Both the position numbers and the translations under genes were made by a program. The notes beneath the pieces are model-generated. The model was not told where the DNA came from and did not search any database. It saw only the letters and a program-made list of their open reading frames with translations. 48,369 bases of DNA, taken from assembly GCA_944322305.1 (NCBI GenBank), contig CALUOP010000012.1, positions 1-48,369 on the forward strand. Direction: 5' to 3'. Source of the DNA: an uncultured Coriobacteriaceae bacterium (GTDB lineage Bacteria > Actinomycetota > Coriobacteriia > Coriobacteriales > Coriobacteriaceae). The stretch's first letter is position 1. The number at the start of each line of letters is the position of its first letter. Below are positions 26,260 to 41,729 of the stretch, piece by piece.

Positions 26260-27318
26260 TCAATTCCCAAAGACAGTCTTCACCACCGGGAACCTTCGCC
26301 CAAGCGGAATAACAATTGCCGCAGTCAGCAAGGAGCAGCCAACCACGAAAACGTACAGTGCCACATGCGAAACAGGCGCCTCAAAAAAGCTGATTTCGCT
26401 GTAGCCGCAAATGCCGTAGACGAAGAGTACAGCAAAAACCATATGCACAAGATACACCACGGTGCTCGCCTTGCGCGCCCACGGATGGGCGGCATCTCCA
26501 ACGCGCCTGATACAAAGAAAAAAGAGCGCGATCGCGAACATCACGCAGAACGGTAGGTGGGCATTTGAGCTTATCAAGACGCAGCCCGCTAGGCCGGCAA
26601 CCAAGCAGGCGGTCGTTGACCAAAGACGCGGCTGAGGGTGCCTACCCCATCCGAAGCCAATGTACATCCCGACCGCGACATAGAAGAACCCCTCGAAAAC
26701 ACCGTTGCGGACCGTGACAAAGACGGCGCCATACAGGTCAGCCAAGAGCGCAATCGGCGCTGGCGCTCCCTCCCACCCGAGCGCGACCTCTATGGCGTAG
26801 CCAAGGAAGAGCGCCAGTGTCGACAGAGCAAGGATCGTCCTGGACGCCACCCCCCCCCGCAGCAGAATGTAGATCAGCGCAAACGCCACCACGCTCGCCA
26901 GCAGGTACCACAGGGGCCAAGTGAAGTCGTTCTCCCCGATAAACACCACGCCCCTCGCGATGCGAAGGACGGTCTCAAACGCGTTCCATCCCCTCAGACT
27001 CGCCCCAAATAGCGCGAGAGGCAAAAGCAGCACCGTCCAGATCACATAAAGCGACAGTTGCTTGTGAATCGTGCTACGCACCCGACCCGCCGCTGCGGAG
27101 GAGCGGTCTTTGACCTCAAGCGGCACAAGGCCCCTAAAACATAGGAAGCCCGACGCGATGAAAAAGAACGGCACGGCAACGCAGTCGACGGCGGCTGCAA
27201 CCTGTGTGATGGCAACCGACCCGATGTCGTTGAATGGCTTAGTGTGTATCTCGACCACCAGAAAAGCCATGATGACCTTTGCAATGTCGAGGAGCGGAAA
27301 CGATTGGCTTGTTGACAT
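26260..27318 (-). CDS. Acyltransferase 3 family membrane protein (polysaccharide O-acylation)
   Basis: A 352-residue protein of the OafA/acyltransferase-3 family with about ten hydrophobic helices. The family N-terminus is visible: DIAKVIMAFLVVEIHTKPF, where the His is the proposed catalytic residue, then VDCVAVPFFFIASGFL. Such proteins acetylate or succinylate sugars during or after polysaccharide assembly at the membrane. It is the last gene of the cluster. A run of nine G in the coding strand (26858-26850, codons for Leu-Arg-Gly-Gly-Val) could slip and switch the gene off. The ribosome site (AGGAG) is very close to the ATG. Confidence 0.87.
   Translation of the reverse strand: MSTSQSFPLLDIAKVIMAFLVVEIHTKPFNDIGSVAITQVAAAVDCVAVPFFFIASGFLCFRGLVPLEVKDRSSAAAGRVRSTIHKQLSLYVIWTVLLLPLALFGASLRGWNAFETVLRIARGVVFIGENDFTWPLWYLLASVVAFALIYILLRGGVASRTILALSTLALFLGYAIEVALGWEGAPAPIALLADLYGAVFVTVRNGVFEGFFYVAVGMYIGFGWGRHPQPRLWSTTACLVAGLAGCVLISSNAHLPFCVMFAIALFFLCIRRVGDAAHPWARKASTVVYLVHMVFAVLFVYGICGYSEISFFEAPVSHVALYVFVVGCSLLTAAIVIPLGRRFPVVKTVFGN
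26850..26858 (-). repeat. G9 homopolymer tract inside the acyltransferase gene
   Basis: Nine consecutive C on the plus strand (G in the mRNA) at about codon 154 of the acyltransferase. A gain or loss of one base would break the frame. The flanking sequence CTGCGGGGGGGGGT also occurs before the sugar-transferase gene at 39712-39720. Confidence 0.9.
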
Positions 27319-27636
27319 TCTCCTATTCTCTTCCTTTCAATCTATTATTATTCTCTGCCAAGGAAATCCCAACAGCCCCGGTCCCGTAAGAAGGCCCGCT
27401 AGCTTTCAACCCCCCCCTATGCCCCCACGCCCTGCATGCACTGATCTGAACGAAAACCGGGCTCCCTAGAATGCAGGTTTCGCGATATCTTGACAGCGAC
27501 TGCCGATACGCCGCTAACGTGAACATCGGGAGAAACCCTTCAACTCTATTTACAAGGAGACACTCCCCAGGGGCTTAACCTGCTTGTAGGGAGCGGCTGG
27601 AAAGCTCCCGTCACTCGCACGAACCGTTTTCTATCC
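27319..27636 (-). other. Gap between acyltransferase and glycosyltransferase genes
   Basis: About 318 bases with no credible gene in an operon whose proximal genes overlap. It contains a run of eight C (27410-27417), a GGGAGC/GCTCCC hairpin near 27590-27610 and no clear promoter. It looks like a junction left by gene exchange. Confidence 0.4.
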
Positions 27637-28722
27637 CTAGATTCCCCGCAGAAAAGCCATCTCCTCTTTGACCCAGCGGTCGATTCCGTAGTGCTCCTCT
27701 AGATATCTTTGCGTCTTTTCTGGCTTCGTTTTGGTTCGCAGCCTATCCAAAGCATCGTCTATGCCATCAGCAAGCGCATCGGGATTCTCCGCAGGAACCC
27801 AGGTCAAGCCCGGAACGCCTCTCAAAGAGTTCTGCCCTGGAACGTCGCTCGCAACGACGACACAGCCGCAGTACGCTGCCTCAAGAACAGCGTACCCGAA
27901 GGCCTCCGACCTCGACGGTGAAAGGAAGATGTCAGCGGCGGCGTACAGGGATGCGACGTCCTCGCGCACCGGAACGATGGTCACCCAGTCTGGCACCTTT
28001 CCCCTCAACTTTTCCACCAGCTTCCCGCATGAGGCAACGTCGTGCGTGGCGATGGTCAAGCGAACGTCCCTACCGAGCAGGCGGAGGATGTCAATCGCTT
28101 CTATCGCCGTGTCAGCACCTTTTCTGTAGAAATCCGACCCGAAAAGTAGTGCATTCACAGCACCCTTTATATGTGAAGGTTCCAGGCTGTCCTCAAGGCC
28201 TGCGTACCTCGAAAAATCTATTGCGTTTGGAATACATATGATCTGTGAACTCGAATAGAGTCTCGCAAGCGAATCGCAGACAGGAGAAGACACACCAATT
28301 AAGTAGAGGTCTCGGTACGCTAGGCGGAACAACGCTCTCTTCAGTACCCTTTTCAGCTTTCCGACCAAGGTCTTCGGAAGGACTACAGTCATGTGATAGT
28401 GCACCACAACCGTTCTGAACAGTCTGCAAAACGGAAGTGGATCATTGCTTCCCATGAAGTGCATATAGATGATGGCGTCCGGGCCGAAGACGTCCAGAAG
28501 GCGACCAGCAAGCGCATTGAGAGTCTTTCGATCGAAGTCGCAGAACACCACGTCAACCTCATGGATCTTCGATGCCCAACCCTTTTCGCGCGCGGTGCTC
28601 GGCAGCACCAGGAGCTGCCGACCCTTCCACCTCCTCGCGAGGGAGCATATACTTCGGATGAAGTTGCCCTTGTAGTTAGCGGCGTAATTGCATATGTAGA
28701 CTAGCGTACGGGTGGCTTCCAT
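27637..28722 (-). CDS. Glycosyltransferase family 4 (GT-B fold)
   Basis: A 361-residue cytoplasmic glycosyltransferase that adds a sugar to the lipid-linked repeat unit. The C-terminal half has the GT4 nucleotide-sugar fold, with ICIPNAIDFSRYAG, LLFGSDFYRKGADTAIEAI and the E-x7-E motif in SPSRSEAFGYAVLEAAYCG. The N-terminal acceptor domain starts EATRTLVYICNYAANYKGN. The frame is open 93 codons further upstream, but the ATG at 28722 gives the family start and avoids overlap with the flippase. Codon use is more AT-rich than the genome. Donor and linkage are unknown. Confidence 0.87.
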   Translation of the reverse strand: MEATRTLVYICNYAANYKGNFIRSICSLARRWKGRQLLVLPSTAREKGWASKIHEVDVVFCDFDRKTLNALAGRLLDVFGPDAIIYMHFMGSNDPLPFCRLFRTVVVHYHMTVVLPKTLVGKLKRVLKRALFRLAYRDLYLIGVSSPVCDSLARLYSSSQIICIPNAIDFSRYAGLEDSLEPSHIKGAVNALLFGSDFYRKGADTAIEAIDILRLLGRDVRLTIATHDVASCGKLVEKLRGKVPDWVTIVPVREDVASLYAAADIFLSPSRSEAFGYAVLEAAYCGCVVVASDVPGQNSLRGVPGLTWVPAENPDALADGIDDALDRLRTKTKPEKTQRYLEEHYGIDRWVKEEMAFLRGI

Positions 28723-28924
28723 GATCCGCCGTCCCCTTCTTTCCGCAAGCGCGCAGTGCGCTCTCGCCTTTTCAAAATCCAATATCACAAGCCCGACATA
28801 CGTAGACACTTCGATAGCTTCCCGTTCTGCCGAAACGACATCCTGCGAAGGTGCTCGACAACCGACACACCACCCATGAAAGCCCTGTCGCACGGCCGTG
28901 AATCTCGTATAGCCAGAACATCCC

Positions 28925-30487
28925 CTACCGCCCCAAAAAGAGAGAGCGAATCTCCCCACGCTCCCACTCCGTCGCCGATGCTTTCCAATAGACCACGGCA
29001 TACAGGACTATAAAGCCGGCCCCGAAAGCGATTAGACAGGGCCAGGAGAGAGTTTCAATCGGAAGCGCCAGACGGGCAACGCCCGCAAGCAACACCACTG
29101 CAGCGAGGGGTATGAAGCAGCGTGCAACGGAGCGCCAGAATGCTTTGATATCAAGTCCCACTTTTGATGCGTAGTACCAGTTCATGACAATCCCGTTGCC
29201 GACGAACATGCACACCCCGCTGGAGACGGCGGCGCCGACGATTCCCCAGCGGGGGATGGCGATGAAAGAGACCGCAAGGTTCATCAGGGACAAGCAGAGG
29301 TAGATGAACCCTCTGAAGGAGTACCTGTCCATCACCTGGAGTACCGTGATGCCTAAGTTCTGAATCAGATCGACGGTCATCGGCACCATGATCGCCAGCG
29401 CGACCCAATACGAGTCTTCGAACCCAGGCCCAGCCCAGAGTCCGATGAAGTCGGGGCCGAGGATGAGAAACCCACCGAGGATGAGAAACAGAACGGCAAA
29501 CGACACTCTACCCACACGGACGAACAGCTCCGAAACGGCCGAAATGTCGTGTCTCGCATGGACGAGCTCGGAAACGCGCTGGAAGAAGACTCCGCTTATC
29601 GCCAAGCCCGCCGCCATGTAAGCGTTGTATATCTGGGAGCCGACGCCGTACACCGCGACGAGATCGGCCCCCGCGAAATAGCCAACGAGGAGCTTCCCGG
29701 AGTTCCAGAATATCTGGTCAGCAACGGTGACCAAGACCACAGTGGCCGAGAAGCCAAACAGCCCCCTCAGGAGTTTCCGGTCCCAGCCACGGAACACGTC
29801 GCGCACGCCTAGGCGCCTTTTGGCGTATACCCTCTGGAGCAGAGAACAGACTATGTTCATCGCAAGCACGACCACCGTAATCGTCACCGCGCTCGGAAAG
29901 GCTTGGCCGACGAGGATGATGAGGACCGGCTGCAGCACGAGCGTGAGGAGCTGAGTTCCCTTTAGGAAGACGAACCTCTCGTGCGCATTGATCGCCGCGA
30001 TGTTCACGGTATTGTTGAAGGTAACGACCATGTTAAGGGCGAGGATGACGAGCATGACGGAGCACTCGTCTAACTGCGACTCCGAAAATGATGCGGAATA
30101 GGCAGCCCTCGTGAGTGGGATGAGCAGAAGCACGACGGCGACGGCGACGGCGGATATCACCCAGTAGAGCCGCTTCGCGATGGCAAGGGTTCTCTCCATC
30201 ATGCTCTCGTCGTGTTCGGCCTTGTACTTGCTGTAATATCGTCCAACCCCCGCAGACAGCACGCTGTTCACAGAGATGATGTACGACATGATTGCCCCGA
30301 CGGTCTGATACAACCCGTATTCGGTCTTGCCTATGGTGGAGAGGAGAAGCGGGACGTACACGAGGTTCACCACGACCTGACCGAACGTATACGCGTACGA
30401 GATCAGTATCCCGTGCTGCCTCCTCTTCGATTTGGCCGCATCGGATTCGTCAAGCGCGATTTCGCTGCTTTTCAATTTCAGCTTCAC
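28925..30487 (-). CDS. Wzx-type polysaccharide flippase
   Basis: A 520-residue membrane protein of the oligosaccharide flippase (MOP) superfamily with about 12-14 helices. It moves undecaprenyl-linked repeat units across the membrane. Family-like features are ISYAYTFGQVVVNLVYVPLL, the early GKTEYGLYQTVGAIMSY and KLLVGYFAGADLVAVYGVGS. The likely start is the GTG at 30487, with GGGAAGG about 11 bases upstream. Gaps of 201 and 173 bases flank it on its two sides, unlike the proximal operon genes. It works with the EpsG-type polymerase. Confidence 0.88.
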   Translation of the reverse strand: MKLKLKSSEIALDESDAAKSKRRQHGILISYAYTFGQVVVNLVYVPLLLSTIGKTEYGLYQTVGAIMSYIISVNSVLSAGVGRYYSKYKAEHDESMMERTLAIAKRLYWVISAVAVAVVLLLIPLTRAAYSASFSESQLDECSVMLVILALNMVVTFNNTVNIAAINAHERFVFLKGTQLLTLVLQPVLIILVGQAFPSAVTITVVVLAMNIVCSLLQRVYAKRRLGVRDVFRGWDRKLLRGLFGFSATVVLVTVADQIFWNSGKLLVGYFAGADLVAVYGVGSQIYNAYMAAGLAISGVFFQRVSELVHARHDISAVSELFVRVGRVSFAVLFLILGGFLILGPDFIGLWAGPGFEDSYWVALAIMVPMTVDLIQNLGITVLQVMDRYSFRGFIYLCLSLMNLAVSFIAIPRWGIVGAAVSSGVCMFVGNGIVMNWYYASKVGLDIKAFWRSVARCFIPLAAVVLLAGVARLALPIETLSWPCLIAFGAGFIVLYAVVYWKASATEWERGEIRSLFLGR

Positions 30488-30660
30488 TATTCAACAACCT
30501 TCCCTAAGGAAGCCCCGATTGGTTTCCCTGCCGCTCTTTGTTTTACAATTGGCTGTCACCATGACTTGAGTACATATGGCACCTGCATGCTAGAAGTTCC
30601 CACTGTGCAGGCAGATTGACGATTCGTCTAGGTGAATCACTCTTTCCTGTCGTGCGGCGT

Positions 30661-31485
30661 TCATTTCCTGTTACCTTTTGCGAACCACTTTTTAGCAACG
30701 AACCTCGCGCGCTTGATATCAGCAAATCTTATGATCCTTGCGATGCAGGCAATGCGACCAGCCGCCTTAAGCGATAACCCTCGCCTCATCCCCCAAGAGG
30801 TGATTTGGTATTCAAATCTTTTCCTCTCAGAAAACCAGCTCATACTGAAGTGATGAATCGTTCGAGTGTTCTCCGTTATGCGAATATTCCCTGTATACAG
30901 ATTTTTTGGGTTGAAGTATTCAGACGGGTAGACGGTTACCCCCTCGACCTCTTGAATGCCGGGCACGTTTCTCAGCCCGCAAGATCTTAGGATATCCGTC
31001 GTTCGAACGACAACGGTAGTCTGATTAAATGATCCGTCACTTTTTATGAACTCATCCGCCTCGTAAGAGGCAAGGATGAGCTCATAAAGGCCAAGCCCGG
31101 GGTTGGCCGCAAGGCCAAGCCCGGGGGCGACGGAGAAGTTGTTCCCCGAACCGGCGGCATCCGTCTCGAAGCCCATAAAGGGACCTGTTGCAACGATGTC
31201 GTCCATGGGTCGAATCACTTCGACATCAGTGTCGAAATAGAGACCACCGTGTTCGTACAGGATGGCGAAACGGGCGTAGTCGCTGACGAACGCCCACTTC
31301 TTCGCATCATAAGCCTGAGAAACATAGGGGCAGCAGCGTATATCGAAGTTGGATTCATCCCAACGGATGATCTCGTAATCCGGAAAGAACTTTCTCCAGG
31401 ACTCAATGCATTTGAGCTCTTCGGGTCCCAGCGGGTTTCCCCCAAACCAGCAATAGTGAATTAGTTTTGGTATTGTAGAGTTCAT
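30661..31485 (-). CDS. Glycosyltransferase family 32-type (DXD sugar transferase)
   Basis: A 274-residue glycosyltransferase with the capsular polysaccharide GT32 pattern. The start IPKLIHYCWFGGNPL is diagnostic, and the metal-binding DXD is in GGLYFDTDVEVI (Asp 85 and 87) after FVSDYARFAILYEHG. These enzymes use nucleotide sugars such as UDP-Gal or GDP-Man in the cytoplasm. It starts 25 bases after the polymerase stop, with AGGGAA before the ATG. The 173-base gap after it (30488-30660) holds no gene. Confidence 0.88.
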   Translation of the reverse strand: MNSTIPKLIHYCWFGGNPLGPEELKCIESWRKFFPDYEIIRWDESNFDIRCCPYVSQAYDAKKWAFVSDYARFAILYEHGGLYFDTDVEVIRPMDDIVATGPFMGFETDAAGSGNNFSVAPGLGLAANPGLGLYELILASYEADEFIKSDGSFNQTTVVVRTTDILRSCGLRNVPGIQEVEGVTVYPSEYFNPKNLYTGNIRITENTRTIHHFSMSWFSERKRFEYQITSWGMRRGLSLKAAGRIACIARIIRFADIKRARFVAKKWFAKGNRK

Positions 31486-31510
31486 TGGTCTATTTCCCTA
31501 ATAAAGAGCT

Positions 31511-32668
31511 TTAGCCTATTCCCAAGATGGAAGATGTATACGGAACCGCCGCGTTAAACCCTTGCCATACGAAGCAGACGAAGAAGCGAGTGCAGCAGCT
31601 TGCCGTCAGCATTGCGATTCCCGAAAACGTCGTTAGCGTTGTGTTTTTTAGATCCTTAACGCAGGCGCTGATAAACGGAACGATGAATAGGGTGCAGTAG
31701 CTCATCATTCGTGCAATTGTGTTGTCTATGCCGCTCAGTACGAAAAACGGTACGGACAGGGCAATTAAGGTACAGAAGAATGTTGCATCGATATTCGATC
31801 TCCCCTTTATCCCCGTTCGGAGCATGAAGGCACTTACTATCATGAGACATAGGAAAAGGAGCGAACTCGTCCCATACTCGCTTCCCCCCTCGTGCGAGGC
31901 ATAGAGAAACAGCCTTCCAACGCCTTCGAGGTTTGTTAGGAAAGAGGTGAGCTGGTGAAAGAAGATTGTTCCGAGCATAATGCCAAATACGACAAGAAGG
32001 ACAATGGGCTGAAACCACTTTCGGTAAGTCGGCTCAAGCCCAGCATCATCCTTCTTGAACATTACGAACCAAAGCAAGCAGAACGCGAAGCCAACGACCG
32101 CAGAGGCATGAATCAGGCAAGCAACTAGAAGCTGAACAGAAGCGCAAGCATAACGCGAGCCCATGGTAGAAAGTATCCCAAGCATCACAAATCCCATGGC
32201 TACCGATTGCCTCATCATGTTGAGCCCAGGAATAAAGAAGACGAGCATGTATGCAAGCATAACCAAGCCAAGATGATTTTTCGATACGCTGCGGGCGGCA
32301 AGCAACACAGGAACCAACATGGCAAGTTCTATCGCAAAAAAGTATGCGAACTGGGATTGAAACAGCCTTATCACAACAAAGGAACCCAGTGCAAAAAGGG
32401 GGGCAACGTCCCAATAACTGACTTCAAGGGCATGATTAAACCCCTCGTAAGTGTTCGAAAAAATCCCCTGCTGATAGATGAAAACTCCATAGCCAGCAGT
32501 ATCGGTGCCGATGGTGACATCGCGTGCTCCGGCCAGCACGCACAATGCTATGACGGCAAGAGCATAGAGTGGCCATGCCACACGCCTCCCGCTGCGTGAC
32601 CCCTCAAAAAAGCTTCCAAGCTCGAACAACCCTGAGGACAATGCGAATGTGAATAGATATGGAACCAT
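31511..32668 (-). CDS. EpsG family polysaccharide polymerase (Wzy-like)
   Basis: A 385-residue membrane protein with about ten helices. The motif ARDVTIGTDTAGYGVF near residue 50 is the EpsG/Wzy signature (R-D-x-x-x-G-T-D-x-x-x-Y). It joins repeat units outside the membrane after flipping. It also has the typical NMMRQSVAMGF element. The frame opens with TTG at 32710, but the ATG at 32668 begins at the first hydrophobic helix, 17 bases after the GT2 stop, and is preferred. AT-rich codon use and low similarity are normal for this serotype-determining class. Confidence 0.85.
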   Translation of the reverse strand: MVPYLFTFALSSGLFELGSFFEGSRSGRRVAWPLYALAVIALCVLAGARDVTIGTDTAGYGVFIYQQGIFSNTYEGFNHALEVSYWDVAPLFALGSFVVIRLFQSQFAYFFAIELAMLVPVLLAARSVSKNHLGLVMLAYMLVFFIPGLNMMRQSVAMGFVMLGILSTMGSRYACASVQLLVACLIHASAVVGFAFCLLWFVMFKKDDAGLEPTYRKWFQPIVLLVVFGIMLGTIFFHQLTSFLTNLEGVGRLFLYASHEGGSEYGTSSLLFLCLMIVSAFMLRTGIKGRSNIDATFFCTLIALSVPFFVLSGIDNTIARMMSYCTLFIVPFISACVKDLKNTTLTTFSGIAMLTASCCTRFFVCFVWQGFNAAVPYTSSILGIG

Positions 32669-32684
32669 ATGCCATCCGTTTCGA

Positions 32685-33686
32685 TTATTTCCGACGGAAA
32701 AATGAGCCAATGCGAGCCAGCGCCCACGCCGGTCCTACCAAGCTCCTCCTCAACAACACGGCCAATAACCTTGAATGGAGACCGAACGTTCTGAGAAACC
32801 GCCCATCACAGTCTTCCAGGGGCGCCGACTTCGACACCTTGTGAAGTACTTCTAGAGAATCTGCACAGCTTCTCGCCGATGCGTAATGGAGTACGAAATG
32901 GCAGAGCTCTTCCACGCACCTTGCCGTCATTTTTTTGTAACAGCACAGCTTTGGGCAGGCGGAATCCCATTGCCTCGCATATTTCAAAAGCTCAGCTTGC
33001 ACCTTCTGCATGTCGCGCAGATAGTCAATCGTAATATTTGAGCTGATGCTCGCAGCGTTAGGTCGATAATAATACAGAGGTTCATTGAGGAAGACAGTAC
33101 TCTCAGCACGATCGAACACGATACACGACTGCACTGCATCTTCGCCCATATTGAGACGCCCGAAGCGGCTGAAATCGGCATCCAACCCAACACAGCGCCT
33201 TGAGACAGCTTTCCGACACATCGAGTTCATACGGTTCGTCTCACTGAAGAGCTGCTGCGCCTCATCGCGTGTAAGCCGAGTCCTTGCGGAAAGTCGCGAA
33301 CCCTTAATCGGCGAGAAGTCGTGAGAGCGCGAGAAATCGTAATAGACGACATCAGGACGCTGCAGATCGATAGCAGAGCCGATCTTTTCGAGGGCATCGC
33401 TGCGCAGCAGGTCGTCCCCATCAAGAGAAACCACATAGTCGCCTTCCGAAATCTCGATTCCCGCGCGCCGGGCGGCCAGTAAGCCCTTGTTCTTTTGATG
33501 GATAACCTTTACCGTGTTCTTGCAGGCATCGCGGAAGCTGTCGCACAGCCCGGGACTTCCATCCGTGGAACCATCATCGACTAAGACAACTTCGTAGTCG
33601 GTACAGCCCTGAGCGAGTACGGAACCAAGCGTTTCCGACAGATAGGGTTCGACATTGTATACGGGAATTATAATTGAGAACCTCAA
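32685..33686 (-). CDS. Glycosyltransferase family 2 (GT-A fold)
   Basis: A 333-residue inverting glycosyltransferase. MRFSIIIPVYNVEPYL is the classic GT2 start, followed by LVDDGSTDGS (Asp 37-38, nucleotide binding), NKGLLAARRAGI, the DXD in SLDGDD (about 89-92) and a GEDAV acceptor loop. It adds a sugar to the repeat unit in the cytoplasm. The start is TTG overlapping the previous stop (TTGA), with AAAGAGG seven bases before it, so translation is coupled. The C-terminal part is variable and gives no specificity. Confidence 0.9.
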   Translation of the reverse strand: MRFSIIIPVYNVEPYLSETLGSVLAQGCTDYEVVLVDDGSTDGSPGLCDSFRDACKNTVKVIHQKNKGLLAARRAGIEISEGDYVVSLDGDDLLRSDALEKIGSAIDLQRPDVVYYDFSRSHDFSPIKGSRLSARTRLTRDEAQQLFSETNRMNSMCRKAVSRRCVGLDADFSRFGRLNMGEDAVQSCIVFDRAESTVFLNEPLYYYRPNAASISSNITIDYLRDMQKVQAELLKYARQWDSACPKLCCYKKMTARCVEELCHFVLHYASARSCADSLEVLHKVSKSAPLEDCDGRFLRTFGLHSRLLAVLLRRSLVGPAWALARIGSFFRRK

Positions 33687-34798
33687 GAACGAACCTCTTT
33701 CATATAGACATCGATAAGCCGCTCCCGCAGGTCGCCGATAGAAAAACCAGCGCTTCGCAACCTCGATACGGAAGATTCAGATGCATTTGACCGGCTTCCC
33801 GCGGGTACAGCAAAATGAATCGCCTCCACCCACGTCTGAACTGCGGCTGATAGCGGAAGAAAGGTGAGCAACCCGGTAATATCCGCTTCCTGAGAGACAG
33901 CGTCCGAAACGACGCAGGGCAGGCCGTTTGCCTGGGCCTCGATAAGGGTAATGGGGAGCCCTTCGTAGAAGCTCGGCATGACAAGGCAGTCCATGGCGCT
34001 GTAATAGCGCCATGCATCGCTTACGGTGCCGGTGAAGTGCGTCCATGGCGCGACGCCGAGCACTTCGGCCTTCTGTGCGAGCATCGCCGACTCCTCGCCT
34101 TCGCCGAGAAGGACCAGGCGAGCCTCTTGCCCCGCTTCTCGCAGGCGCGTCAGAATATCGATGGCGAACGCCGTGTTCTTGACCGGTATCCCGGCGCCGA
34201 CGAGGCCGATTGCAAACGCTTCCTCAGGGATGCCGAGCGCTTCTCGCACCGCCATACGCTGTTCATGGGAAAACGCGAACTTGTCGAGGTCGATGCCGTT
34301 TCTGATGATCGTGTAAGGCTTGTTCCCGAAAAGCCAGTCGCCCGCCACCTTGGAGCATGCGACGCGAACCGTCGGCGCGCCTGAGTACAGCAGCTTGAGC
34401 GTGGCGTCGCCCGCGCGCTTCCACAACTCGTCGCTACCAAGCGACGAGTTGTGCGAGTGCACCACACGTATGCCAACACCCGCGCGGCGCGCCGCCTCCG
34501 CGCAGAGCAGCCCGGCACCGTTGTTGCAGTGTATGTGGACAACGTCAGGCAACTCGCGCTCGAAGAAGCGAACCATATCCCCCACGCTGCGCCCCCCGGC
34601 GAGCTTTCCGCTCTGGACAACCGGCCCGAGCACCGTGAGCCCCTGGTCGTCACCGGAGACAGGGCCCAAGGAGGCGACGACCTGGCGGTACTTGCCCTCC
34701 GGAAGGGCCTCGACGGCATTGTGGATGAATCGCTTGACCCCGCCCACACCGCAGCCCCATCGCATCGTGACGTGCATGACCTTCTTTGCTGCCGCCAT
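33683..34798 (-). CDS. Glycosyltransferase family 4 (EpsF-like)
   Basis: A 371-residue GT-B glycosyltransferase. The N-terminal domain contains MHVTMRWGCGVGGVKRFI and VHIHCNNGAGLLCAEAARRA, and the C-terminal domain has IRNGIDLDKF, GLVGAGIPVKNTAFAIDIL and the E-x7-E element PSFYEGLPITLIEAQANGLP. This is close in layout to EpsF-type enzymes. The ATG overlaps the upstream stop (TGATG). Codon use here is still GC-rich; the AT-rich distal part of the operon begins at about this gene. Confidence 0.9.
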   Translation of the reverse strand: MAAAKKVMHVTMRWGCGVGGVKRFIHNAVEALPEGKYRQVVASLGPVSGDDQGLTVLGPVVQSGKLAGGRSVGDMVRFFERELPDVVHIHCNNGAGLLCAEAARRAGVGIRVVHSHNSSLGSDELWKRAGDATLKLLYSGAPTVRVACSKVAGDWLFGNKPYTIIRNGIDLDKFAFSHEQRMAVREALGIPEEAFAIGLVGAGIPVKNTAFAIDILTRLREAGQEARLVLLGEGEESAMLAQKAEVLGVAPWTHFTGTVSDAWRYYSAMDCLVMPSFYEGLPITLIEAQANGLPCVVSDAVSQEADITGLLTFLPLSAAVQTWVEAIHFAVPAGSRSNASESSVSRLRSAGFSIGDLRERLIDVYMKEVRS

Positions 34799-35967
34799 CA
34801 GAGCGCTCCTTTGACGAGACGCTTGACCGACGTCGGGACGGCACGCTTGATGCGGTTCCTCAGAATCTCCCTCTTGTACAGATGCGGCGTTAGCGACGCG
34901 ACAGCCGTGAACCCGCCGGACGCATAGGCTTCAGCAAGCCTTTCGCGCTCGGCTGGCAGGGAGGACGGTTTCGTCAGGTTGGCGTTCGACCGCGCGGCTT
35001 CCTCGAACCGCACCTCCTCAATGAACGCGCGGCCCTCGCACGCACGGTCGAGGAGCTTCTGCCCCTTCTCCGTGCTTGCGAGCGCGACGGAAACGCCGCC
35101 GTCTAGGTCGATGGGGAGATGCAGCCGCTCGACCCCCCAGAAGTCCCCGAGCGTGACGTCTCCTGCGCGCTTGGATCCAGCGTATGGGCAAGCGTAGCAG
35201 CACTTCCTGAACGTGGCGCCCTGGTTGAACGTGAGCACATACGGGTCATCGACCGGCAGTGTCGACATCGGTTCTGCACCAACCCTGAAAGATCCGAGGT
35301 AGGACCAGCCAGCCGCCATCTTGTCGCGGGAGTTGTACTCCACCAGGGGCTTTCCAGCCCGTTCCTCGAACCATCGGAGATAATCCTCGAAAAAAGCTGC
35401 CGACGGCACGCCGTGGCAAACAAGGTCGACGGTCACGAGGCTTTCAGGCTCGCAACCGAGATACGCCTTCAGAGCTGCGACTTGGCAGGGCGTCCCGACG
35501 AACAGAACCTCTCCCCCTGCAGCCAGATCGTCCCTGACACGCTTAAAGGCCCCCGCGGTGTCGCTGTGGACGTACTTCGAGCGACGCAGTTCCGCCAGCT
35601 CCCCAGGCGATGACGCCTTCGAATGGGCTGCGCCACTTCCGCGGTTCCATCGCGATCCGTACACGACGCCGCCCTCACCGAGCACCTTCTCCGCAAGGAG
35701 CGAGAACACGCCTCCGGAGGAAGATTCCTCAAGGATCTTCCAGTCTTTCGCCTGCACCGCGAATGAGCGCCCTTCGAATGCCCTCCGCTCGAAGGGTTTG
35801 GCCGCATGGCACGCGCGAAGACATGCCCCGCAGTTGATGCAGGAGTCCCCGTCCACAACGGGGTACTTATGCCCGAGCTCGCGCCCCTCCATGGATATGC
35901 ACGCTTTGGGGCAGGAGGCAACGCACGCCCCGCAGCCCGTGCACGACGAACCGACAGATTCAATCAT
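34798..35967 (-). CDS. FrhB-like Fe-S protein (coenzyme F420 hydrogenase beta-subunit family)
   Basis: A 389-residue protein with two 4Fe-4S ferredoxin motifs at the N-terminus (CTGCGACVASCP and CINCGACLRACH). The FrhB domain follows, with EESSSGGVFSLLAEKVL, FVGTPCQVAALKAYLG and CYACPYAGSKRAGDVTLGDFWG. Members of this group are common in polysaccharide loci beside pyruvyl transferases, yet their reaction is not established; F420 dependence is unlikely in this organism. The start overlaps the pyruvyl transferase stop (ATGA), and the two are probably co-regulated and perhaps act together. Confidence 0.87.
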   Translation of the reverse strand: MIESVGSSCTGCGACVASCPKACISMEGRELGHKYPVVDGDSCINCGACLRACHAAKPFERRAFEGRSFAVQAKDWKILEESSSGGVFSLLAEKVLGEGGVVYGSRWNRGSGAAHSKASSPGELAELRRSKYVHSDTAGAFKRVRDDLAAGGEVLFVGTPCQVAALKAYLGCEPESLVTVDLVCHGVPSAAFFEDYLRWFEERAGKPLVEYNSRDKMAAGWSYLGSFRVGAEPMSTLPVDDPYVLTFNQGATFRKCCYACPYAGSKRAGDVTLGDFWGVERLHLPIDLDGGVSVALASTEKGQKLLDRACEGRAFIEEVRFEEAARSNANLTKPSSLPAERERLAEAYASGGFTAVASLTPHLYKREILRNRIKRAVPTSVKRLVKGAL

Positions 35968-37085
35968 CGCGACACCTCCTCGATGAGTCCCCGGAGGTAA
36001 ACACGCGCGCTCGCCGTCCCACGCGCGATAGCGTCCGCCGGACCCGCGTATTCGATCTCCTCCGAAACCACGGCCTCGTCGAACCGCCCAGTCACCAGTC
36101 TCCGCTCCAAGCCGGTCAGCGCGAGGATGTTCTCGATGCGAGCGTTGTATTTCGCGGCAAAGGTGAGGAACCGTTTTCGGAAGATGATCGAGAAGGCCGT
36201 TCCGTGGAACGAGTTCGACACCACGAAGTCAGCGTCCCTGAAGAGCGCGAGGAAATCGGAGGGGTTCGCGAACAGGAAGTTGCGGTCCACTCCGGGCATG
36301 CGGATGGGCCTGACCGAGAGGACATAGAGCCTCGCTCCGAGCATATCCGCTATCTCGCGCGCCTGCCGCACCATGTCATCGTATCCCTGCGCGATGACGT
36401 AGACCAGGACATACGGCTCCTTCCGTACTTTTCGGGAGGCCAGCTCGCACCATTGCTCGCGGTCAAGGAAGAACACCGGATCGAGGTCGACCCGCGCCTC
36501 GATGCCGTGCTCCGCCAGCTGCTCGGCGGCCTTCGACTCGCGCACGGAAACGCCCGCAAACGGCGCGACCCCCTTGGCGATGGCCGAACCTTCCTCCTCG
36601 GTCAGCTCGTCCTTGCCGATGCTCGCCGCATAGGATGCCCTCGTGGCACCCTCCGGCGCGAAGCCAAGAAAGTAGCTCTTGTCCTTGCTACCGTTATAGG
36701 TGGAGTTCCACACCTGATCGCTGCCCACAAGGTAGAGATCCGCCCGCGGGCAGCCCGCGGAGAGCTCGCCCGAGTCGGAGAACCGGCCGCTCAGAGCGAT
36801 ATGCCCCTTCAGGTAGGAGCGGAAGACCGCCTTCTGGGGAAGGCGTATGACCGAGCTTGCAAACAGGAACGCCAGCTTCCACGGGAGGCTCTTGTCCGGG
36901 TATTTTATCTTGACGTTGTTCCACACCCTGTACCGTGCAGGCACGTAATCCAGAACCACGACCTCGGCCCCCAGTTCGCAGAGCGTCTTCGAAAGCGCGT
37001 AGCATTGGAGGACGGAACCGTGATTGATTCCGAAGTGGATGGTCAGGATCGCGACCTTCGGCGGTCTGCTATGAATTCTATTCAC
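35964..37085 (-). CDS. Polysaccharide pyruvyl transferase family protein
   Basis: A 373-residue enzyme of the CsaB/polysaccharide pyruvyl transferase family, which transfers pyruvate from PEP to sugar hydroxyls, adding negative charge. The N-terminal pattern AILTIHFGINHGSVLQCYAL, the LYLVGSDQVWNSTYNG element and the late VVSNSFHGTAFSIIF motif with its His are family hallmarks. The GTG at 37085 is used: AAGGAGG lies five bases before it, inside the last codons of the epimerase gene (8-base overlap). An earlier GTG at 37091 falls within the ribosome site. Confidence 0.88.
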   Translation of the reverse strand: MNRIHSRPPKVAILTIHFGINHGSVLQCYALSKTLCELGAEVVVLDYVPARYRVWNNVKIKYPDKSLPWKLAFLFASSVIRLPQKAVFRSYLKGHIALSGRFSDSGELSAGCPRADLYLVGSDQVWNSTYNGSKDKSYFLGFAPEGATRASYAASIGKDELTEEEGSAIAKGVAPFAGVSVRESKAAEQLAEHGIEARVDLDPVFFLDREQWCELASRKVRKEPYVLVYVIAQGYDDMVRQAREIADMLGARLYVLSVRPIRMPGVDRNFLFANPSDFLALFRDADFVVSNSFHGTAFSIIFRKRFLTFAAKYNARIENILALTGLERRLVTGRFDEAVVSEEIEYAGPADAIARGTASARVYLRGLIEEVSR

Positions 37086-38190
37086 TGGCACCTCCTTGTC
37101 GGAGGATATCCGCGATCCTCTCGCTCGCGTGTCCGTCGCCGTAGGGGTTGGACGCGTGGGACATCTTCTCGTAGGCCGCCGGGTCGTCGAGCAGGCGAGA
37201 GAACTCGCGGTAGATAGTCCCCTCCTCGGTGCCCACGAGCCTGAGCGTGCCGGCCTCCACGCCCTCGGGGCGCTCGGTGGTGTCGCGCATGACGAGCACG
37301 GGCTTGCCCAGGCTGGGCGCCTCCTCCTGGATGCCGCCCGAGTCGGTGAGGATGAGGTGGCTTCGGGCCATGAAGTTGTGGAAGTCCACGACCTCCAAGG
37401 GGTCGATGATCCTGAGTCGGTCGAAGCCGTCCAGCTCCTCGTGGGCGGCCCTGCGCACCTGCGGGTTCATGTGGATCGGGTAGACCGCCTTGGTGTCGGG
37501 CCTCTCCTCCATGACCCGCCTGATGGCGCGGAACATGCGGTGCATGGGCTCGCCCAGGTTCTCCCTGCGGTGGGCGGTGACGAGGATGAGGCGGCTACCC
37601 TCGGCCCACTCCAGCACGGGGTGGGAGTAGCCCTCCCTGACCGTGTGGCGCAGGGCGTCGATGCCGGTGTTGCCGGTGACGAAGATGCGCTCGGCGGGCT
37701 TGGCCTCCTCGAGCAGGTTCTTCCTGCTCGTCTCCGTGGGGGCGAAGTACCAGTTGCTGATCACATCGACCGCCTGGCGGTTGAACTCCTCGGGCCACGG
37801 GCTGTAGAGGTTCCTCGTGCGCAGGCCGGCCTCAACGTGGCCCACCGGGATCTGCAGGTAGAAGGCCGCCAGAGCCGCCGCGAACGAGGTCGTGGTGTCT
37901 CCGTGGACGAGCACCACGTCGGGCTCCTCGTACTCCATGACCTTCCTGAGGCCGGAGAGCACGTCGCAGGTGACGTCGAAGAGCGTCTGGCCCGGCCTCA
38001 TCACGTGCAGGTCGCGGTCGGGCCTCACGCCGAAGACACGGAGCACCTGGTCGAGCATCTCGCGGTGCTGGCCTGTGGCGACGACCACGGTGTCGAACTC
38101 CTCGGGCCTGGACTTGAGCTCCAGCACCAGCGGGCACATCTTGATGGCCTCCGGGCGCGTGCCGAAGACGAGCATGACCTTCTTCCTCAT
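37078..38190 (-). CDS. wecB: UDP-N-acetylglucosamine 2-epimerase (non-hydrolysing)
   Basis: Converts UDP-GlcNAc to UDP-ManNAc in the cytoplasm, the donor for the WecG/TagA-type enzyme encoded just upstream. The 370 residues show KVMLVFGTRPEAIKM at the start, VHGDTTTSF, GHVEAGLRT with the catalytic-region Glu, VTAHRRENLG and TDSGGIQEEAPSLGKP. The ATG overlaps the upstream stop (ATGA, 4 bases). The frame continues open far upstream through the transferase gene, but only this start matches the family. Codon use is GC-rich. Confidence 0.95.
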   Translation of the reverse strand: MRKKVMLVFGTRPEAIKMCPLVLELKSRPEEFDTVVVATGQHREMLDQVLRVFGVRPDRDLHVMRPGQTLFDVTCDVLSGLRKVMEYEEPDVVLVHGDTTTSFAAALAAFYLQIPVGHVEAGLRTRNLYSPWPEEFNRQAVDVISNWYFAPTETSRKNLLEEAKPAERIFVTGNTGIDALRHTVREGYSHPVLEWAEGSRLILVTAHRRENLGEPMHRMFRAIRRVMEERPDTKAVYPIHMNPQVRRAAHEELDGFDRLRIIDPLEVVDFHNFMARSHLILTDSGGIQEEAPSLGKPVLVMRDTTERPEGVEAGTLRLVGTEEGTIYREFSRLLDDPAAYEKMSHASNPYGDGHASERIADILRQGGASE

Positions 38191-38960
38191 CGGGAGGCCT
38201 CCCCCTTCATCCTCTTCTCCTCCTCGCGCAGCATCCGCATGAACCGGGCGTTGCCGGCCACGTACCTCTTGGCGAGCCTGCCGGGCTCCTGCATCATGCG
38301 GAAGAGCCACTCCAAATGAGCCCGCTGCATCCACATCGGAGCGCGGGGTATGGCCCCGGAGACGACGTCGAAGCTGCCGCCGACGCCCACGTAGGCGCCC
38401 GTGAGCCCGAGCTCCCGGAAGCGCTCGATGAGGCGCTCCTTCTTGGGACTCGTGATCCCCACGAAGGTGACCTGCGCGCCGCTGTCGCGCACCTCCTCGG
38501 CCACGGCGTCGAACTCTCCCTCGCCGAAGTAGCCGTCGCGGACGCCGACGACGTCGAGGCCCGGGTACTCCCCCAGCAGCGCGTCCCGCGTGCGCTCCAC
38601 GACCTCGCGCTTGGCGCCAAGCAGGAACACGCGGTAGCCCTCGCGCTCCGCGAGGGCGCACAGCTCCGCCATCAGGTCGACGCCGGCCACCCTTTCGGGA
38701 ACGGGGGAGCCGAGCCTCCTTGCGGCCATCACCATCGAGGCGCCGTCGGCGTTGACGACCTCGCAGCGCCTCACGCAGGCGTCCATCCACGGGTCGTCGC
38801 ACATCTGCAGGAGCTTGTCGGCGTTCACGCCGATGAGGTGCGCGAAAGCGCCGGACTCCACGAGCTCCTTGGTCCTCCCGACCGTCTGGGCCATGGTCCA
38901 CGGGTCGACGGGAACCCCCATGACCTCGACGCGCTTGGGCAGTGAGTTTTTCTCGGCCAT
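38187..38960 (-). CDS. WecG/TagA/CpsF family glycosyltransferase
   Basis: A 257-residue transferase that adds ManNAc (TagA/WecG) or a related sugar to an undecaprenyl-PP-linked acceptor on the cytoplasmic face. Characteristic are VEVMGVPVDPWTMAQTV, the VNADGASMVMAARRLG motif with the catalytic-type Asp, RVAGVDLMAEL, FLLGAKREVVER, GISTSPKKE-like VGITSPKKE and AYVGVGGSFDVVSGAIPRAP. The C-terminal basic helices hold it at the membrane. It starts at the TGATG overlap with the sugar transferase. With wecB next, ManNAc transfer is the best guess. Confidence 0.93.
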   Translation of the reverse strand: MAEKNSLPKRVEVMGVPVDPWTMAQTVGRTKELVESGAFAHLIGVNADKLLQMCDDPWMDACVRRCEVVNADGASMVMAARRLGSPVPERVAGVDLMAELCALAEREGYRVFLLGAKREVVERTRDALLGEYPGLDVVGVRDGYFGEGEFDAVAEEVRDSGAQVTFVGITSPKKERLIERFRELGLTGAYVGVGGSFDVVSGAIPRAPMWMQRAHLEWLFRMMQEPGRLAKRYVAGNARFMRMLREEEKRMKGEASR

Positions 38961-39703
38961 CAGTAGGCCCCCTTCCCGTCGAGCATGGATCGGACGGTCG
39001 AGAACATGAGCTTGAGGTCATGAGCCGGCGAGCTCTTCTCGATGTAGTCGAGGTCGAGGTCGACCATCTCCTCGAAGGAGGAGTCCGAGCGCGTGGACGC
39101 CTGCCACGCTCCGCCACAGCCGGGCTTGACGCGCAGACGCCGCATGGCGCGCTCGTCGTATTGGACAACCTCCCTTGGCAGCGCCGGGCGCGGGCCGATG
39201 AGGGACATCTGGCCCGTGAAGACGTTCAGCAGCTGCGGGAGCTCGTCGATGGAGTGCCTGCGGATGAAGTGACCCAAGCCCGGGATGACGCGCGGGTCGT
39301 CCTTGATCTTGAACAGCGGGCCGTCCGCCTCGTTTTGATCCCGGAGCTCCACAAGCATCTCGTCTGCGTGCGGCACCATCGAGCGGAACTTCCACATGCG
39401 AAAGAAGCGGTAGGTGCCGTCGGCGCGCACGCGGCCCGCGCGCAGCTGGCTATAGAGCGGGCCGGCGCCCGGGGACTTCACGCAGATGGCGGCGGAGAGG
39501 GCGAGGCCCGGGACGAGCAGGACCGCCAAGGCGGCTCCCGACGCCACGACGTCGAAGGCCCGCTTGGCGGCGCGGTAGCCGTAGCGGCCCGGCACAGGGC
39601 GCACGCCAGAGTCGGCGCCGTGCAGCAGCGTGACCGCCTCGGCGTCAGTGAGCCCAATGGCAGCAACCTCCCCCGCCAGCGGGGCGCTATCTTCTCTTCT
39701 CAT
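38960..39703 (-). CDS. Initiating sugar-phosphate transferase (bacterial sugar transferase family)
   Basis: A 247-residue polyisoprenyl-phosphate hexose-1-phosphate transferase that starts the repeat unit by loading the first sugar phosphate onto undecaprenyl phosphate. It has one membrane segment (about 70-92), then YRFFRMWKFRSMVPHAD, RVIPGLGHFIRRHSIDELPQL and NVFTGQMSLIGPRPALP. It is the short form without the long N-terminal membrane domain. The ATG at 39703 lies eight bases after a run of nine G that serves as the ribosome site. A TTG further upstream at 39742 would place this run inside the protein and is less likely. Confidence 0.93.
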   Translation of the reverse strand: MRREDSAPLAGEVAAIGLTDAEAVTLLHGADSGVRPVPGRYGYRAAKRAFDVVASGAALAVLLVPGLALSAAICVKSPGAGPLYSQLRAGRVRADGTYRFFRMWKFRSMVPHADEMLVELRDQNEADGPLFKIKDDPRVIPGLGHFIRRHSIDELPQLLNVFTGQMSLIGPRPALPREVVQYDERAMRRLRVKPGCGGAWQASTRSDSSFEEMVDLDLDYIEKSSPAHDLKLMFSTVRSMLDGKGAY

Positions 39704-39711
39704 CGGCGAGA

Positions 39712-39720
39712 CCCCCCCCC
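39712..39720 (-). repeat. G9 homopolymer at the sugar-transferase ribosome binding site
   Basis: Nine C on the plus strand (nine G in the mRNA) eight bases before the ATG of the initiating transferase, in the only G-rich stretch that can serve as Shine-Dalgarno. A change in length would alter spacing and perhaps translation. The 14-base context matches the tract in the acyltransferase gene. Confidence 0.9.
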
Positions 39721-39823
39721 GCAGCGTTTTCGCAGGAGGCAATCCTTCTCTTCCAGCATTCCGACCCGTGCTCCCGACCCTCGTAAACCTTCGCTTGCAG
39801 AACCTGCGCCCTGGCCGGCGCCG

Positions 39824-40429
39824 TCAGCTCTTCCTCGGCACGTCCAGGGGCATGCACTCCGTGAAGCCGCCGTCCGCGTCGGTGACGCGCACCAGGCAGC
39901 GCCTGCGGTGGCGGTCCACCCTGCTCACGCGCGCCTCCTGGCCCACCAGCGGGCCGCGCTCCACACGGAGGACGCCGCCCTCGATCACGGCCACGCTGTT
40001 GCGCAGCACGTGCTCCGGCCCGGCGGCGCCGACGAGCCACGCCGCGGCCTCGTCGGAAAGCGGCATGTACGAAGCGCCGAACGCGCCGGCGAGCTCCGCG
40101 GGGAACGTGAGTCCCGCGAGCGCCTTGGCAAGCGCCCGCACGTCGGAGGTCTGCGCGAGCGCCGTCCCCCTGTAAGCGGGCACGGTGTCCAGGCGCCAGA
40201 CGCCGCCGCGCTTGAACCAGCGCTCCTTGCGCAGGGCGAACGCATCCGCCAGCACCGCGCGCGGAAGAACCCTGAGGAGCCTCTCGCACGTGGCCCGCTC
40301 GCGGCCCTCGGGCACGCGCAGCACATACCAGCGCAAACGCCCCCGCGGGCTCCTGCGCCCCGCGGGCAGGCCGAGCGGAAGGGCGGCGCCGGCGCCTGCG
40401 CGCGTGCTTTTCTCCACTGCAACAGCCAT
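39824..40429 (-). CDS. NusG/RfaH/LoaP-like transcription antiterminator
   Basis: A 201-residue NusG paralogue. After a variable basic N-terminus comes the NGN domain, beginning LRWYVLRVPEGRERATCERLL (about 35-55), then YRGTALAQTSDVRALAKALAG. The C-terminal KOW-like domain has GPLVGQEARVSRVDRHRRRCLVRV. Specialised NusG proteins such as RfaH, UpxY and LoaP sit first in long polysaccharide or antibiotic operons and keep RNA polymerase reading through. Its position as first gene of a 14-kb operon fits. The ATG at 40429 was chosen: AGGGAGG is six bases before it, whereas a GTG at 40435 touches the site. It is 120 bases ahead of the sugar transferase. Confidence 0.87.
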   Translation of the reverse strand: MAVAVEKSTRAGAGAALPLGLPAGRRSPRGRLRWYVLRVPEGRERATCERLLRVLPRAVLADAFALRKERWFKRGGVWRLDTVPAYRGTALAQTSDVRALAKALAGLTFPAELAGAFGASYMPLSDEAAAWLVGAAGPEHVLRNSVAVIEGGVLRVERGPLVGQEARVSRVDRHRRRCLVRVTDADGGFTECMPLDVPRKS

Positions 40430-40488
40430 GGGCACCCTCCCTTAGCAGCTCGTCTACCTGCGGAAACGCAAGCGATTTACGTAAGCGG

Positions 40489-40520
40489 GGTGTCTGGAAA
40501 GGTACACCTTTTTAGACACC
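40489..40520 (-). promoter_or_regulatory. Nested hairpin in the polysaccharide operon leader
   Basis: In the minus-strand RNA GGTGTCT and AGACACC form a 7-bp stem. It encloses a second near-perfect hairpin made from AAAGGTG and TACCTTT-type arms. It lies about 15 bases after the likely -10 box and about 60 before the antiterminator start. Such a hairpin could recruit a LoaP-like protein or be a binding site for a repressor. Confidence 0.5.
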
Positions 40521-40648
40521 TCTCAGCACAGCTATTCTACACGAATAAAAGCCCTAAACAGCCCTCAATACGTTTTCCACAGTCCACATGTTGTGGTTCG
40601 CGCCGTCTGAGCGCGGTACGCAGGCGCTCCGGGCGGGTGCTTGCAAAT

Positions 40649-40667
40649 GTGTACTTTTTTGACACCT
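40649..40667 (-). repeat. Second copy of the GTGTC-A/T-run-GTAC motif
   Basis: On the minus strand AGGTGTCAAAAAAGTACAC resembles AGGTGTCTAAAAAGGTGTAC in the leader hairpin about 150 bases away, but it lacks the closing GACACC arm. Same orientation, upstream of the promoter. This suggests a protein-binding site present twice. Confidence 0.5.
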
Positions 40668-41330: not shown

Positions 41331-41729
41331 ATGGACGAGGTTCTCGCCTATCTCAAAAAGCACCCCACGTACTTCCTTGCCACCGTTGACGAGAACGGCA
41401 ACCCGCAGGTGCGCCCGTTTGGCACCGCCACCAAGTTCGAGGGCAAGCTCCTTATCCAGACCGGCAAGAAGAAGACGGTGTCGCGCCAGATGCACGCCCA
41501 CCCGCGCGTTGAGCTGTGCGCTTTGGGCGACGACGGTTCGTGGCTGCGCGTGGCCGCCGACGCGCACGAGGTAGACAGCACAGAGGCACGCCAAGCCGTG
41601 TTGGACGACCACCCCAAGCTGCAGGGCATGTACGCAGCCGACGACGGCAACTGCGAGGTCTTTGCGCTGGAAAACGCCACCGCAACGTTCAGCTCGTTCA
41701 CTGCTGAGCCCAAAACCGTCACGTTCTAA
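41331..41729 (+). CDS. Pyridoxamine 5'-phosphate oxidase-like flavoprotein
   Basis: A 132-residue split-barrel protein. MDEVLAYLKKHPTYFLATVDENGNPQVRPFG is the standard beginning of the small FMN-binding pyridoxamine-phosphate-oxidase-like group, with KLLIQTGKKKTVSRQM and HPRVELCAL following. These proteins bind FMN or F420 as homodimers and reduce various substrates; a specific substrate cannot be read. GAGAAAGGA precedes the ATG; further upstream open frame was ignored because it has no family sequence. Confidence 0.88.
   Translation: MDEVLAYLKKHPTYFLATVDENGNPQVRPFGTATKFEGKLLIQTGKKKTVSRQMHAHPRVELCALGDDGSWLRVAADAHEVDSTEARQAVLDDHPKLQGMYAADDGNCEVFALENATATFSSFTAEPKTVTF

Follow-up and report, generated by a model that had tools for sequence, protein, structure and literature searches.

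Does the hairpin that opens the leader of a long polysaccharide operon in an uncultured Coriobacteriaceae bacterium act as RNA, recruiting the NusG-like protein encoded immediately downstream, or does the same sequence serve as a site on the DNA? The question arises from a stretch of 48,369 nucleotides, considered here at its full length and referred to as the window, in which an initial annotation had described a LoaP-like antiterminator gene and a leader hairpin as its possible recruitment signal.

The gene lies on the minus strand at 39824..40429, with its ATG at 40429, and does indeed head a polysaccharide operon of approximately 14 kb, as had been proposed. Polysaccharide genes continue on the same strand (26260..39742) to about position 26260, encoding a sugar-phosphate transferase, a WecG/TagA/CpsF protein and a UDP-GlcNAc 2-epimerase, followed by a pyruvyl transferase, an FrhB-like protein, glycosyltransferases, EpsG, a flippase and an acyltransferase. 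When compared with the NCBIfam LoaP family (NF033641), the product of the first gene scored 62.1 bits, below the curated cut-off of 125, while all 19 members scanned matched that family. The UpxY family, by comparison, gave the window protein 16.4 bits against a cut-off of 100. A profile of 19 orthologs found 8f5g ("NusG-RNA complex") together with NusG chains, and the AlphaFold model of the window protein (pLDDT 85.8) presents an NGN-KOW fold like that of 8f5g, which was also the best PDB match of the model in a Foldseek search (E 1.7e-11, TMq 0.71; next other entry 1.5e-5). With 8f5g as the best profile and fold match, the LoaP-like identity first suggested is supported, the gene being assigned as that of a divergent LoaP-like NusG paralogue with a putative role in antitermination. 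It was also observed that two other loci of the same genome, on contigs C1 and C11 (L002, L004 and L005), carry tandem pairs of NusG-like genes before sugar-transferase genes, and that a second NusG-like gene is likewise found downstream in 6 of 37 orthologous loci. Such paired genes might encode partners or antagonists.

The hairpin is equally real. Read on the minus strand from 40520 to 40489, it is the near-palindrome GGTGTCT-AA-AAAGG-TGTA-CCTTT-CC-AGACACC, in which the 7-bp GGTGTCT/AGACACC stem surrounds a second hairpin, and it stands 5' of the ATG and just 3' of a likely -10 box, TAGAAT (40539..40534, minus strand), from which transcription is predicted to start at about 40527-40528. Folded in isolation, the element forms 7+5 bp at -15.7 kcal/mol. 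The 7-bp stem shows a pairing probability of 0.98-1.0 within the first 45-60 nt of the predicted leader and of just 0.02-0.07 when the predicted leader is taken from +1 through to the ATG, because downstream sequence competes for pairing. The 101-nt leader folds with a z-score of -1.92, a value equalled by 10 of 200 shuffles, and an Rfam scan of the window returned no match. The partial copy of the motif noted some 150 bases upstream is likewise present, at 40636-40667, approximately 147 bp away, and repeats the hairpin in both the direct and the inverted sense (inverted match 23 nt, 74%). It is the inverted relation that is meaningful. Taken by itself, the two-site repeat of the window scores 9.0 against 7.5-11 for its own shuffles, that is, at the level of chance; the significance of the pair comes from comparison with relatives, not from this score.

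In a protein search of 118 relatives, 60 genomes gave matches at E<=1e-5, and 27 contained a close ortholog (E<1e-40). The scan of named genomes contributed 25 loci, from Collinsella (C. aerofaciens, C. ihumii and others), an Atopobiaceae bacterium and three Adlercreutzia, and the 69 strongly matching loci were reduced to 37 distinct ones. A search of the relatives for the motif GGTGTCNAAAAA of the initial annotation, allowing at most one mismatch, returned nothing among close orthologs and a single match in a distant relative (L039), which at first suggested that the element was not conserved, a view overturned once the leaders were compared side by side. The best inverted repeat within at most 350 bases around the leader proved to be a pair of the same site in 35 of the 37 distinct loci, with a core reading GTGTAC, CTGTAC or GTCTAC and with 106-151 bp from core to core. 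The two exceptions were L024, in which the upstream part is cut off, and L027, in which it is different. Overall, the real repeat score was matched or exceeded by 8 of 148 shuffles, 4 of them from L024 and 2 from L027, with the remaining 2 among the 4 shuffles of the window, which has the weakest pair of the 35 (score 9.0).

To locate the sites in the window, a weight matrix was built from 46 distinct sites of relatives, with the window left out. Over all positions and both strands, the two best matches were the hairpin and its upstream copy, in inverted orientation: the inner, operon-proximal site (40489..40520, minus strand) scored 28.0 at 40492-40517, and the outer site (40636..40667, plus strand) scored 21.6 at 40639-40664. 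The scores that followed, 14.8 and 14.7, were the palindromic echoes of these same sites, and the next, unrelated score was 8.2. The core GTGTAC is identical in the two sites (40507..40502 on the minus strand and 40649..40654 on the plus strand), leaving a segment of 141 bp between the cores (40508..40648). Across the 2.35-Mb genome, the two site patterns matched solely at the two window sites, while reversed controls matched 7 times and once. At the five other NusG-family places in the same genome (L001-L005), no nearby site scoring at least 10 was found.

In relatives, the segment between such sites is seen in both orientations. Between L025 (Collinsella sp. 4_8_47FAA, the same locus as L102) and L026 (C. 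aerofaciens D59t2_181005_D7, the same locus as L103), the flanks are 100/100% identical, whereas the inner segment matches at 98% as the reverse complement and at 60% as is. In L017 and L018, the corresponding values are 92% and 57%. An inner match above 85% was obtained for 48 locus pairs, in 23 of which the two segments run in opposite directions, and the 17 Collinsella-type loci comprise 11 in which the promoter faces the gene (ON) and 6 in which it faces away (OFF). In all 17, whichever way the segment lies, the core is followed by C or A at the upstream site and by T at the downstream one; this base thus stays with the flank, placing the exchange point in or next to the core. A TATAAT-like box is found 25-28 nt from the edge of the inner site in 33 of the 35 loci, facing the gene in 15, the window included, and facing away in 18. 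The two others are L020, which has TATAAA and lies in the ON orientation by alignment, and L036, which was placed in neither group. The inner segment of the window aligns weakly with those of relatives (0.42-0.62 either way), and its -10 box, on the operon strand and 26 nt from the edge of the inner site, lies where ON relatives have theirs, such that the assembly holds the predicted promoter in the ON orientation. For the window promoter, the sigma-70 search returned nothing that included a -35 box, and no -35 box of the TTGACA type was found. The locus type shows three of the features that mark an inverton: inverted repeats around a short segment, a predicted promoter inside it and, in relatives, both orientations between unchanged flanks.

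Several loci depart from this pattern in ways that deserve separate mention. In L027, which keeps the downstream site and the promoter, other sequence stands in place of the upstream flank and the outer site, possibly through an insertion or rearrangement at the switch. In L016 and L044, the central dinucleotide differs between the two sites (GT vs AT), and, judging from these bases, the switch may be locked. In the window, a small gene at 41331-41729 on the plus strand, beginning MDEVLAYLKKHPTYFLATVDENG, lies on the side toward which a flipped promoter would read; its product we take to resemble pyridoxamine-phosphate-oxidase-like proteins.

A candidate for the inverting enzyme was sought among resolvase-family proteins. 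The genome of the window contains a single PF00239 match, a serine recombinase of 209 amino acids (P0002) encoded on contig C10 (61194-61820), unlinked to the window locus, which matches the structures of Tn552 Bin3/Sin (E 4.9e-29) and of the DNA-invertase 4m6f (E 9.6e-19). In 10 of the 37 loci, a relative of this protein (64-78% identity; one is truncated) is encoded directly upstream, its gene adjoining the upstream site and ending approximately 240-273 bases before the antiterminator gene; for this count, the available upstream sequence came to about 1.4 kb or more, except for two loci with 220-256 bases. The recombinase is present in 27 of the 27 genomes with a close ortholog, as compared to 23 of the 91 others (Fisher p 3.4e-13, a value inflated by shared ancestry). 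Its presence in the 23 genomes lacking an ortholog suggests further targets.

Together, these observations are best explained by the hairpin and its copy being the inverted sites of an invertible promoter controlling the LoaP-like gene and the polysaccharide operon, a reading to which we assign a probability of roughly 0.88. According to this explanation, the serine recombinase encoded on C10 would occupy each quasi-palindromic site in dimeric form and flip the 141-bp segment. In the orientation of this assembly, the promoter would read into the LoaP-like gene and the approximately 14-kb operon, and in the flipped orientation it would read away, turning the operon off. The LoaP-like protein, as the first product of the ON state, would help RNA polymerase to finish the long operon. 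For the strain of the window itself, we infer the flipping, the identity of the C10 protein as the enzyme, the activity of the promoter and the antitermination.

The same invertible promoter could also be flipped by another recombinase, such as a tyrosine recombinase, rather than by the C10 protein. The C10 gene is unlinked and the search for an enzyme covered PF00239, both of which leave room for this variant. Nonetheless, we consider it rather unlikely, given that relatives of P0002 adjoin the very same sites and that P0002 is the one PF00239 match that the genome offers.

Some further observations concern the recombinase genes themselves. At L089, a recombinase locus in a genome without a close ortholog, an inverted site pair was found at 2140 and 2245, 105 bases apart (scores 22.7 and 22.4), and this is perhaps another invertible promoter with another target. 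Around the C10 recombinase gene, no convincing site was found, the best within 10 kb scoring 5.5 and a GTAC stretch just 3' of the gene scoring -0.5. A possible correspondence between site core and recombinase identity, the nearest relatives of P0002 being mostly accompanied by GTGTAC cores, was considered and dropped, since genomes G053 and G007 do not fit.

The inner site may, in addition to its role on the DNA, work as a transcribed, structured leader element in the strain of the window. Of the 35 inner sites, those of the window (13 of 16 half-site positions) and of Adlercreutzia L097 are the most complete dyads; the window site would, moreover, be transcribed. Still, such a double role appears improbable, as the corresponding position in most relatives shows little RNA structure and as full palindromes are to be expected for some recombinase sites.

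The initial annotation had gone further, taking the hairpin to be a possible RNA signal that recruits the LoaP-like protein, and had named lack of conservation of the stem in relatives as evidence that would speak against this. The stem is not conserved: of 35 sites, just those of the window (-15.7 kcal/mol) and of L097 (-14.5) are more stable than -12 kcal/mol, the next values being -10.2 and -9.8, with the Collinsella-type sites at approximately -2 to -5 kcal/mol. The proposal draws on the predicted start lying just before the site, such that the hairpin would be transcribed, on the stability of the hairpin in the first 45-60 nt and on the requirement of Bacillus velezensis LoaP for a leader hairpin, described as being of the UNCG type in the accessible part of that report (PMC12691694). 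In the window, however, the loop is UGUA rather than UNCG, the stem is rarely formed in the full leader and the upstream copy precedes the promoter. UNCG hairpins of at least 4 bp were, furthermore, absent from the window leader and not enriched among leaders, appearing in 2 of 35, while shuffles predict about 1.4. Being one of two inverted sites suffices to account for the element. The symmetry of the hairpin is not a feature conserved as RNA and is that of a recombinase site with an extended dyad, the sites being symmetrical at a mean of 6.2 of 12 outer half-site positions, with 3 expected; we regard a role as the recruitment signal as highly improbable. Finally, the reading of the two palindromes as operators of a DNA-binding transcription factor, prompted by two quasi-palindromic sites flanking a promoter, merits almost no credence, as it leaves unexplained both the inversion of the segment in relatives and the recombinase genes that adjoin the sites at 10 of 37 loci.

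The absence of the ops element GGCGGTAG from the leader was confirmed, none of its 7 copies in the window falling there and one lying within the operon (28925-28932). The 7 copies are more than the 1.9 expected, a number reached in 0 of 100 shuffles. Elsewhere in the leader, the part that does not invert drew attention. In 17 Collinsella-type leaders, 49 of the first 58 columns 3' of the exchange point are invariant, as compared to 42 of 100 in the invertible segment. A small hairpin following this conserved stretch contains two compensated pairs, found in 3 of 14 distinct rows, all from one lineage, perhaps reflecting one event. The stability of the leader after the site was unconvincing, with z-scores of -2.1 to +0.8 against mononucleotide shuffles for 20 loci chosen from the 35. 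The conserved fixed leader offers a better place to seek an RNA signal, a lead and not a result, with no clear homolog shown in the window.

Beyond the invertible promoter, a commitment switch of two layers can be envisaged, in which a serine recombinase acting in trans would decide whether the operon is started and its LoaP-related first product would decide whether the transcript is completed, as a parallel in Coriobacteriia to Mpi/UpxY. The LoaP-related proteins would then form a distinct class with a recognition element of their own in the conserved fixed leader 3' of the site. In loci with the recombinase gene immediately upstream, transcription from a promoter in the OFF state would run antisense through that gene, which could dampen further flipping. 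We put this forward tentatively, as a scheme that is possible rather than probable. What the loci imply in any case is a caution, namely, that a hairpin opening such an operon can be a recombination site instead of an RNA signal. For Coriobacteriia, sites, a candidate enzyme and an assay by PCR or long reads are gained. Capsule switching decides the encounters of gut bacteria with phages and the immune system, and the appearance of the logic known from Bacteroidota in Collinsella, Adlercreutzia and their relatives, with a LoaP-type protein, other sites and a serine recombinase, suggests convergence.

Sites of the Hin/Gin and Tn3-family serine recombinases are quasi-palindromic with a 2-bp centre. 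P0002 resembles these enzymes in matching resolvase and DNA-invertase structures, while the sites and targets differ. The closest parallel in logic comes from Bacteroidota. In Bacteroides fragilis, one serine recombinase, Mpi, is described as inverting seven polysaccharide promoters, acting at a distance (PMC4747536, accessible text), and UpxY antiterminator genes in Bacteroidota are reported, in the part of the source at hand, to sit 3' of invertible promoters (PMC11892184). The window locus would share with Mpi/UpxY a serine recombinase and promoter inversion ahead of an antiterminator-led polysaccharide operon. It differs in phylum, in an antiterminator that resembles LoaP (62 bits) and not UpxY (16 bits), in sites with a GTGTAC core and in the one site pair found in its genome, as opposed to the seven promoters served by Mpi. 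In Akkermansia muciniphila, again of another phylum than the window host, the capsule locus cps1 is described as phase-variable via invertible elements in the available portion of PMC13343947. The available sections of PMC11892184 report many inversions in Actinobacteriota, and the present locus type may figure in its tables. Those of PMC5903667 list inversions in 3 of 19 Actinobacteria species, with Collinsella not named there. A literature search that extended little into subscription papers and supplements returned no report from Coriobacteriia of a LoaP-type gene preceded by an invertible promoter. The nearest published case, as far as the accessible text of PMC13174815 goes, is that of Eggerthella lenta, in which megabase inversions at GATAAGCGCGGTTATG alter the expression of the capsule in surroundings to which loaP belongs, and in which no recombinase was found beside the breakpoints, the authors contrasting their system with short promoter inversion. 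Both cases belong to the class Coriobacteriia and tie an inversion to a capsule cluster with loaP or a LoaP-like gene, yet here the inverting unit would be a promoter segment of 141 bp, with other sites. With LoaP of Bacillus velezensis and 8f5g, the window protein shares its fold, a distant sequence similarity and a position at the head of a long biosynthetic operon, and it departs from LoaP in falling under the curated score (62 of 125) and in having a leader without a UNCG hairpin. Promoter inversion before a NusG-type antiterminator is thus already known from Bacteroidota; what appears to be new here is the combination of a LoaP-type protein, other sites and a host among the Coriobacteriia.
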